Assembly (NCBI GenBank): GCA_023653055.1
Contig: JAMNXR010000012.1
Location: 1-64,000, forward strand
Direction: 5' to 3'
DNA length: 64,000 bases
Origin: Burkholderiaceae bacterium
GTDB lineage: Bacteria; Pseudomonadota; Gammaproteobacteria; Burkholderiales; Burkholderiaceae_B
Shown: piece after piece, positions 1-2,079 of the stretch
Layout of the letters: each line of letters begins with the position of its first letter
Numbering within the stretch: the stretch's first letter is position 1
Position numbers and translations under genes: made by a program
Notes under the pieces: generated by a model
Told to the model about the DNA's origin: nothing
What the model saw: the letters and a program-made list of their open reading frames with translations, nothing else
Database searches by the model: none

Positions 1-278
1 CATCAGTCTATTACGACGCAACGATAAGACACTTGTTTGCCTGGTGGGAAGGCGAGGACTTAGACCCCGACAGCGGTATGAGTCACATCACAAAAGCAAT
101 CGCAAGCCTCACTGTTTTGCGTGATTCGATGATTCAGGGAATGAGTACGGATGACAGGCCGCCAAGATCAGTGCCAATTTACAGCGTACTTAATACCAGC
201 GCTGCATTGATTATCGAGAGGCACAAGGGCAAAACTCCGCGCCATTACACGGTTGACGATACTGGGCTAAAGCTATGA
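1..278 (+). CDS. Phage dATP/dGTP diphosphohydrolase-type protein (DUF5664-like), C-terminal part, cut by window start
   Basis: The ORF track starts this at a TTG (33), but the frame is open to the window edge (it reads ...YYDATIRHLFAWWEGED), so only the end of a longer gene is present. The block 'RHLFAWWEGEDLDPDSGMSH' matches my memory of the conserved core of the phage DUF5664 / dATP-dGTP diphosphohydrolase N-terminal family, small phage enzymes thought to act on purine dNTPs. The acidic residues in GEDLDPDSG and the following His are the likely metal or substrate ligands, by inference. The stop overlaps the next gene by 4 bp (ATGA), as in a compact phage operon. The family call is from memory of the motif; the enzymatic role is not shown here. 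Confidence 0.6.
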   Translation, partial: SVYYDATIRHLFAWWEGEDLDPDSGMSHITKAIASLTVLRDSMIQGMSTDDRPPRSVPIYSVLNTSAALIIERHKGKTPRHYTVDDTGLKL

Positions 279-511
279 GCCAATCAAGACTTGGTAGTTT
301 TATTGAGGCGCTGATTAACGTGGCGATTGGATTCAGTATCAATTTTCTGGCCAACTTGTTGATTTTCCCGCTATTCGGTTTTCACATCACTCTCGGCGAA
401 AACTTCGTGATGGGTATTTTGTATACGGCGATCAGCGTAGTTAGGTCGTACACGATTCGCCGTTGGTTTAACGCAAGAATCAAACGCGCCGCTGAGCGCA
501 TGGCGGGTTGA
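275..511 (+). CDS. Small phage-type membrane protein, DUF7220-like
   Basis: This 78-residue protein has two hydrophobic stretches, about residues 8-33 and 39-58, and ends in a basic tail (RRWFNARIKRAAERMAG). This suggests a two-span inner-membrane protein with the C-terminus inside. The opening 'MSQSRLGSFIEALINVAIGF' and the core 'SVVRSYTIRRWFNA' resemble the DUF7220 family found in prophages and phages of proteobacteria. It starts inside the stop of the preceding gene (ATGA overlap), so the two are translationally coupled. Function is unknown. It supports reading the first 0.75 kb as phage-derived. Confidence 0.6.
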   Translation: MSQSRLGSFIEALINVAIGFSINFLANLLIFPLFGFHITLGENFVMGILYTAISVVRSYTIRRWFNARIKRAAERMAG

Positions 512-694: not shown

Positions 695-819
695 TTGACT
701 TACGCAAAGCAGCAGAAATGGCGTTGGAGGCGCTGGAAAGAGGTACTACTGGATTAGCCATACGGGCTATCCCAGCCCTAACGTCGCATGACCGTCATAA
801 AGTAGAACGCCCATTTTGA
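691..819 (+). pseudogene. 5' remnant of a phage ORF, broken at the junction with the ATPase region
   Basis: The frame starts at the ATG overlapping the previous stop and reads MIDLRKAAEMALEALER, a start I recognise from many small phage hypothetical proteins. After about base 741 the reading becomes unrelated (GTTGLAIRAIPALTS...) and runs antisense into the 3' end of the minus-strand ATPase before stopping at 819. I read this as a gene whose 3' part was lost at a recombination joint near 740-750. The alternative, that the 42-residue product is still made, cannot be excluded. Confidence 0.5.
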
Positions 820-1975
820 ATTGACTTCCAGCTAGGGCGGCGAGTTTTTTCAGCCCATGAAAATCACTCGCTTTGACTGTTGCAGTAGCTTTGATTTCTA
901 CACCTACTAGTTGTCCCTTCGCATTTTCGATCACGATATCGACTTCAACTTTTTCTGTGTCTCGGTAATACATCAAGCTGTAATGATCATCGGAAGTTGC
1001 TGCGTGTTTGAGTAACTCTCCAAAAACAAATGTCTCCAGAACATGCCCAAACCGTGTGCGATCATCATGGATTTCCTCAATGCTGAGATTGAGTAAGGCT
1101 GCCAGTAATCCAGAGTCTATAAATTGCAACTTTGGTGTCTTGACTAGACGATTCAGTCTATTGCGCGCCCAAACGCTCACCCGCTTTAGGAGATACATCT
1201 GCTCAAAGACGTTGATGTACTTTGCGGCCGTCTTGCCGTCGAGCCCGACTTCTCCACCTAGCTTTGCGTAATTGCACATCTGACCTGAAGTCTGCGCTAA
1301 GGCTCTGAGAAAGCGGGGTAACTCATCCAGCTTGTTAATGCCAGCAAAGTCACGGACGTCCCTTTGGATGATGGCTTCCACATACTGCATCGCCCAAGCT
1401 TGCCTTCTTTTAGCGCTTGTTCGCGAAATGGACTCAGGATATCCGCCTTTAAGCACGCGTTGAGCAAGTGATCTTTCAGGTCGATTTACACCTTCAGGCA
1501 GAATCTTCCCTGCGAATGCATTGTCAATCCAGTTCGCGCCTTTACTTTCAATTTCACTTTGAGACAAAGGTAGTAAAGAAAGGGTTTCCATGCGCCCGGC
1601 TAGTGAGTCCGCCACGGTTGGAAGCGCCATCAAATTGGCGGATCCCGTGAGTAAGAAACGTCCTGGACGACGATCCTCATCGATACTTTTTTTTATAGCG
1701 AGCAATAACTCGGGAGCACGTTGAATTTCGTCGATGACTGCGTGGTCTAGCGTTGAAATCATACCCACAGGATCTTCGCGGGCTGATAATAGTGTGAGTG
1801 CATCATCTAATGTGAAGTACTGAAGTTGTTTTTCAGCAGCTATCTGGCGAACAAGAGTTGTTTTGCCTGCCTGACGCGGGCCCGCCAACAGGATGACTGG
1901 GGTGTCTTTGAGTGCCTCCTCAATGCGGGGCCTGATCAGGCGAGCAAAGTTCGGGAGGTTTTCCATATTGAACAA
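767..1975 (-). CDS. AAA-type ATPase with DUF4143 C-terminal domain
   Basis: The 402-residue product has an N-terminal P-loop ATPase domain (AAA_14 type) with Walker A 'GPRQAGKTT' near residues 32-40 and Walker B 'AVIDEIQ' near 79-85. A 'TGSANLM' sensor-like segment follows. The C-terminal DUF4143 domain carries 'EVDIVIE' and 'VGVEIKA' (about 345-363), an arrangement of Asp, Glu-x-Lys like that of PD-(D/E)XK nuclease folds. Proteins of this type are widespread in accessory regions and their function is not established. The start could also be the Met at residue 4 (MENLPNF). The C-terminus is short: family members usually continue past the 'LYDG' strand to a 'W-x-x-P-I' tail, whereas here a TAG comes after GLG. 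The upstream region holds a 22-bp-periodic repeat array. Confidence 0.85.
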   Translation of the reverse strand: MFNMENLPNFARLIRPRIEEALKDTPVILLAGPRQAGKTTLVRQIAAEKQLQYFTLDDALTLLSAREDPVGMISTLDHAVIDEIQRAPELLLAIKKSIDEDRRPGRFLLTGSANLMALPTVADSLAGRMETLSLLPLSQSEIESKGANWIDNAFAGKILPEGVNRPERSLAQRVLKGGYPESISRTSAKRRQAWAMQYVEAIIQRDVRDFAGINKLDELPRFLRALAQTSGQMCNYAKLGGEVGLDGKTAAKYINVFEQMYLLKRVSVWARNRLNRLVKTPKLQFIDSGLLAALLNLSIEEIHDDRTRFGHVLETFVFGELLKHAATSDDHYSLMYYRDTEKVEVDIVIENAKGQLVGVEIKATATVKASDFHGLKKLAALAGSQFKMGVLLYDGHATLGLG

Positions 1976-1991
1976 TATCCAAAGACTCGGG

Positions 1992-2079
1992 AATATTCCG
2001 TAAATTACGGAATATTTTACCGTAAATTACGGAATATAATTATGTAAATTACGGAAAGTTAGGTTGTATATTACGGAAA
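1992..2079. repeat. Array of four TTACGGAA-type repeats with exact 22-bp period
   Basis: The first copy is a perfect 12-bp inverted repeat around one base (AATATTCCGTAA-A-TTACGGAATATT, centre 2004). Further copies centre at 2026 (CCGTAA-A-TTACGG), 2048 (GTAA-A-TTACGGAA, left arm decayed) and 2070 (only the right half TTACGGAAAA). The centre-to-centre distance is 22 bp each time, about two helical turns, so all copies face the same side of the DNA. The array fills the space between the ATPase start (1975) and the moaC stop (2081). A cooperative operator for the ATPase promoter is the simplest reading. It is too short, and lacks variable spacers, to be a CRISPR. Confidence 0.85.

Follow-up and report, generated by a model that had tools for sequence, protein, structure and literature searches.

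A 22-bp repeat array upstream of a PDC-S01 ATPase gene as a putative self-operator with a predicted recognition code

PDC-S01 is a candidate anti-phage defence family in which an ATPase is fused to a domain of the PD-(D/E)XK superfamily. It is reported to rank fourth among prokaryotic defences by frequency, with approximately 39,000 copies detected, 29,494 of them in bacteria and 9,986 in archaea; most candidates of this kind still await validation (PMC12988326). In the open-licence papers that we searched, we found no known activity of PDC-S01 and no description of an upstream array, a self-operator, or a base-recognition code for PDC-S01/DUF4143 proteins. Partition loci and iterons typically have an array of direct repeats in a promoter, bound by the product of the downstream gene. 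Here, we analyzed a 64,000-nucleotide stretch of a Burkholderiaceae bacterium (contig JAMNXR010000012.1, hereafter the window), in which a putative operator array of four units with a period of 22 bp (1992–2079, minus strand) lies upstream of the gene for an AAA_14-DUF4143 ATPase (767–1966, minus strand). Comparison with relatives supports the view that the array belongs to a type of self-operator, with a readable recognition code, that recurs across a clade of PDC-S01 ATPases.

The array and the ATPase in the window

The array was delimited by repeat finding and autocorrelation. The word TTACGGAA occurs on the plus strand at 2005, 2027, 2049, and 2071; the window contains six matches in all, where 1.28 would be expected, and no shuffle out of 100 had as many. 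The autocorrelation of the region was maximal at 22 bp (62 of 93 matches), Tandem Repeats Finder reported a repeat of period 22 at 1998–2084, and the four copies at exact 22-bp spacing that the original prediction described are thus borne out. Five Markov windows contained no array of four 8-mers at any period from 10 to 40, and a search of the whole 2.84-Mb assembly found no second copy of the array. The array starts directly after moaC and occupies almost the entire gap between the moaC stop codon (2081–2083) and the ATPase ATG (1964–1966). On the coding (minus) strand the unit reads TTCCGTAATTTAC, and the units end upstream of the ATG at 1966. The cores, all on the minus strand, are TCCGTAATTTACG at 1999–2011 (gene-proximal) and again at 2021–2033, TCCGTAATTTACA at 2043–2055, and TCCGTAATATACA at 2065–2077 (gene-distal). 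The first half of the unit, TTCCGTAA, is identical in all four copies, and decay is confined to the second half (TTTACGGAA). The gene-proximal core lies within a 25-bp dyad (1992–2016, centred at 2004) in which 12 of 12 pairs match. The perfect inverted repeat originally reported is therefore real at this locus, but units elsewhere in the family are asymmetric direct repeats; likewise, the stepwise decay holds for the second unit half in the window, but the family displays no such trend away from the gene. The proposed phasing along one DNA face is not exact, because 22–23 bp corresponds to 2.1–2.2 helical turns and successive units would be turned by approximately 34–69 degrees.

The ATPase comprises 399 residues from the ATG, or 402 residues in the open frame from the TTG at 1975; the latter numbering is used here (the first covariation ranking counted from the ATG, a difference of +3). 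The protein exceeded the Pfam cut-offs for both AAA_14 (93.1 bits, cut-off 27) and DUF4143 (157.9 bits, cut-off 28.1), and the PADLOC model for PDC-S01 (PDLC04790) matched residues 8–400 with 535 bits and an E value of 2.3e-161. An AlphaFold2 model from a 148-sequence alignment (predicted local distance difference test score, pLDDT, 93.6; predicted template modeling score 0.93) took the place of a shallower one built on 13 sequences (pLDDT 54). On the basis of secondary structure, conserved motifs, and fold matches, the domains were named as AAA+, winged helix (recognition helix at approximately residues 247–259), and PD-(D/E)XK with D346, E360, and K362; a PDB sequence search also gave hints of a winged helix-turn-helix. 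Residues G37, K38, E344, D346, and K362 are invariant in the 148 sequences, D82, E83, and E360 are nearly so, and the Walker and PD-(D/E)XK motifs of the window ATPase are intact.

Family-wide arrays and their covariation with the ATPase

Homologues were drawn from the host family, phylum, and class and from named genomes of Pseudomonadota, Desulfobacterota, Chlorobi, Spirochaetes, Opitutae, and Acidobacteria. Self-matching of 137 upstream regions at lags of 15–40 gave 22 bp as the best lag in 87 regions and 23 bp in 14, and 76 of these exceeded all 60 shuffles. In a second set of homologues, 31 of the 47 upstream regions with hidden Markov model (HMM) scores above 300 bits had arrays of period 22 or 23. 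In a tree built from 209 DUF4143 ATPase genes of many phyla, the array label changed 19 times, compared to 66 when shuffled. A clade of 137 genes on this tree had arrays in 85% and no dyads, while for the other 72 the values were 8% for arrays and 47% for a long dyad just upstream of the start. The original prediction had proposed such a survey upstream of DUF4143 ATPase genes and named a lack of the motif in homologues as grounds for abandoning an operator; the 22/23-bp arrays of the 137-member clade answer both points, as homologues do carry the array.

When 89 arrays were aligned in register, they shared a gapless 13-bp core, TYYSRAWYNKNCG (T-Y-Y-S-R-A-W-Y-N-K-N-C-G), made of two conserved blocks, and the linker between units drifted. 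Within-array identity was 0.83–0.97 at positions 1–4, 0.75–0.83 at positions 10–13, 0.62–0.74 in the middle, and 0.30–0.56 in the flanks and linker. As judged from these alignments, a conserved core with a drifting linker is the pattern of maintained binding sites and not of recent tandem copying. Two arrays (L018 and L021) look recently expanded, unlike this general pattern. Most arrays have three or four units, with a maximum of six, and the last core usually ends 10–40 bp from the ATG. The spacing is 23 bp instead of 22 bp in one group, whose residues 246–248 read SRQ or SRP (L122, L124–L127, L151, L152, L155, and L159).

The core sequence goes with the ATPase and not with the host genome. 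Paralogues within one genome (G851) are preceded by different cores, TCCGTAATTTACG before L147 and TTACATTTGGCCG before L174, and the same was found for paralogues in G676 and G965. The strongest of approximately 5,000 residue-base pairs joined residues 246, 248, and 247 with core positions 2, 3, and 4, and residue 340 with position 10. Against a null in which the motif evolved along the protein tree, the best partner of positions 4 and 5 was residue 247 (family-wise p 0.005 and 0.015, respectively) and that of position 10 was residue 340 (p 0.025); for positions 11 and 13 the top-ranked residues were 343 (p 0.15) and 341 (p 0.065) of the hairpin, short of the 5% level. The counts are nearly categorical: C4 occurs with H/R247 in 53 of 54 cases and G4 with D/G247 in 19 of 20, C3 with K248 in 51 of 52, G10 with K/R340 in 57 of 58, and T10 with A340 in 16 of 18. 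In the AlphaFold2 model, the covarying residues map to the tip of the recognition helix (246–248) and to the turn of the PD-(D/E)XK hairpin (339–343). Most newly fetched homologues in which a core could be read matched the pattern, including ones only 53–61% identical to any member of the first set, and a few distant ones departed from it at position 10 (L186). Because cores track the ATPase, residues covary with bases, and the counts are so nearly categorical, the reader of the array is very probably the ATPase itself, and we infer that these residues physically contact its bases. Family-wide conservation and this covariation strongly support the originally suggested operator, on which the ATPase would act cooperatively to control its own gene.

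Arrays were also sought apart from the ATPase. A two-unit pattern was found at 18 places in 17 of 269 host-family genomes, and the reversed-pattern control gave no match in the same genomes. An intact ATPase follows the pattern at eight of these places, and broken ATPase or DUF4143 pieces follow it at four (L268, L272, L273, and L275); the other six (L266, L267, L271, L277, L278, and L281) have no ATPase. At L266 and L267, in two genomes, a three-unit array precedes the same amidohydrolase-like gene; the L267 genome also carries an array-type ATPase (L009), and the 5' flanks of L009 and L267 are alike. Since these flanks resemble each other, the element may have been copied to another promoter in the L267 genome, where it would be a possible second target. 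No relatives of the ATPase were found in viral contigs, and the array pattern was found there at two places, one of which is an iteron-like array before a different gene. At approximately 2600–2830 of a 152-kb viral contig (IMGVR_UViG_3300035517_000383, L264), iteron-like CGTAATTTACGATATTATG units precede a small helix-turn-helix-like frame.

The ATPase of the window is flanked by moaC (3' end within 2081–2566) and, on its other side, by two phage-type genes at the contig edge, a dGTP_diPhyd_N gene (3–278, plus strand) and a DUF7220 gene (275–511, plus strand). Other genomes of the genus contain an integrase-like frame after moaC and second, partial moaC 3' ends (L236, L239, L241, L245, L248, L249, and L259–L263). 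On account of this frame and the duplicated fragments, the moaC 3' end looks like an integration site in the genus; with that site on one side and phage-type genes on the other, the ATPase probably sits at the edge of an integrated element.

Proposed mechanism and alternative explanations

Sigma-70-like hexamers were found upstream of the family genes with a mean score of 8.3, compared to 5.4 for shuffled sequences, and the commonest placements put the core between the −35 and −10 hexamers. Several beta- and gammaproteobacterial relatives have TTGATA-N17-TATTGT with the ATG 6 bp later, and alphaproteobacterial relatives have TTGACT-N17-GATAGT. Regularly spaced direct repeats thus lie in the putative promoter of the ATPase gene, as in autoregulatory direct-repeat operators of the ParR/parC kind. 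Given the promoter geometry in relatives, the window array is expected to overlap the ATPase promoter, and because promoter-like hexamers flank the core in most arrays, autorepression by the ATPase is likely. We consider it quite probable that the array is the ATPase's own operator, with each core read by two domains, protomers stacked along the repeats, and the promoter shut off. Each 13-bp core would be bound by one protomer, with the tip of the recognition helix (246–248) reading block 1 (positions 2–5) and the PD-(D/E)XK hairpin turn (339–343) reading block 2 (positions 9–13), one helical turn away. The three to six units at 22 or 23 bp would allow side-by-side stacking of protomers, and occupancy should block RNA polymerase, since most family members have a core in the space that separates the −35-like and −10-like hexamers. 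Such repression would keep a potentially damaging ATPase-nuclease at low levels until release, perhaps triggered by ATP state, by phage DNA or protein, or by titration. The anatomy of the array, its conservation across the family, the pairing of cores with their cognate ATPases, the residue-base covariation, and the flanking promoter-like hexamers were observed directly in the sequences; binding, cooperativity, repression, the trigger, use of the nuclease, and a role in defence are inferred.

Several observations weigh against this self-operator. Twelve of the 47 upstream regions in the second set lacked an array at the threshold used, and that set is partly non-independent, with some members more than 90% identical to the first; orphan arrays make up 6 of the 18 places in host-family genomes. 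Core positions 9, 11, and 13 failed the 5% family-wise level, linker column −4 passed it (p 0.03), residue 154 ranked above 246 for position 2, and the tree-simulated null is itself approximate. The hexamer scan used the weights of Escherichia coli sigma-70, and only 38% of genes scored above the 95% limit from shuffled sequences; the promoter of the window gene itself is harder to place than those of its relatives.

Other readings of the array were weighed against the same evidence. It might be a centromere- or iteron-like site that the ATPase binds to segregate, position, or replicate a mobile element, with autoregulation secondary; the geometry resembles that of partition loci and iterons, relatives of the gene occur on 402 plasmid records, and the window ATPase is at the edge of an apparent integrated element at moaC. 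We regard this as unlikely: a single gene is involved, many homologues are on chromosomal contigs, and the ATPase carries a conserved PD-(D/E)XK motif, which partition ATPases are not known to carry. Neither a ParM/TubZ/ParA-type cytomotive NTPase nor a separate adaptor was found, the gene being a single AAA+ fusion with moaC and phage-type genes as its window neighbors. The array might also be a cutting or loading site that the PD-(D/E)XK domain cleaves or nicks under some condition, either to mobilize DNA or to turn on the gene. The block-2 hairpin adjoins the strand that bears D346; residues E344, D346, and K362 are invariant, E360 is nearly so, and arrays survive as remnants or orphans at places with a broken ATPase or none; however, element ends and target duplications were not found (the downstream side was not systematically searched), and cleavage of its own promoter would demand tight control, making this decidedly improbable.

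Operators are often bound by proteins encoded elsewhere, and a separate host-encoded regulator would fit that general rule. The tracking of the core with the ATPase rather than the host, the different cores of same-genome paralogues, and covariation that involves the predicted DNA-reading residues of the ATPase itself leave such a regulator very little probability. We find it equally hard to believe that the array is transcribed into a structured RNA, or that it is a mobile repeat or a product of chance. The dyad can form a hairpin, one-third of the family's array places have no adjoining ATPase remnant, and there is a weak match to the Rfam RAGATH-22 element, but that match breaks many pairs and was rejected at 23.4 bits, far under the gathering cut-off of 120.3. 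Moreover, many relatives have a good −10-like hexamer past the last core with the ATG 6–8 bp on, such that the array would be untranscribed from that promoter, and both the asymmetry of units elsewhere and the null result of the reversed-pattern control speak against a hairpin or random repeat.

Returning to the self-operator, a more speculative extension, which we think doubtful, is that PDC-S01 proteins are one-gene, sequence-addressed AAA+ nucleases for which the array is both an operator and an inactive parking place. Protomers would be stacked at a constant register of 22/23 bp, half of each site being read by the nuclease domain itself, and infection, through nucleotide state or competing DNA, would release them or switch them to cutting. 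If so, the array-type and dyad-type lineages would represent two geometries of one recognition module.

Comparison with known systems

By sequence (AAA_14 plus DUF4143, and the PADLOC model), the window ATPase is a member of PDC-S01. A likely cognate DNA ligand for each such protein, a predictive residue-to-base code, and a regulatory circuit would together provide the first handle on the family that we know of, and binding, repression, ATP dependence, and nuclease activity become testable on a defined substrate. The results also suggest the PD-(D/E)XK fold as a sequence reader alongside the winged helix. The best match to a solved fold is the SSO1545-type archaeal AAA+ ATPase (PDB 2fna), a weak one (E value 2.1e-5, template modeling score 0.43), and the listed fold hits do not convincingly cover all three domains; we know of no array for SSO1545-type ATPases.

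In sister DUF4143 lineages, which lack arrays, a single long dyad often lies over the promoter or start, with arms of up to 25 bp (e.g., GTTTAAACCATACTAATTCAGAGTTGAACTCTGAATTAGTATGGTTTAAAC); such dyads were found in the last 75 bp before the start at L194, L196, L215, L220, L229, L230, and others. The genome of the window contributes two loci to this dyad survey (G000:C10, L215, and G000:C8, L214), and some dyad arms contain the array core inverted (ATTAGACG and ATTAGTCG). Dyad-type ATPases thus resemble the array type in that the element overlaps the promoter or start, but have one inverted pair instead of an array of direct repeats. ParR/parC, TubR/tubC, and iteron/Rep systems have several direct repeats in the promoter, as does the ATPase gene, and their reading and autorepression by the downstream product resemble the control proposed for the ATPase. 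The locus described here differs from them in combining AAA+, winged-helix, and PD-(D/E)XK domains in one protein, in having no adjoining partition or replication gene in the window, and in its 13-bp core that would be read by two domains.
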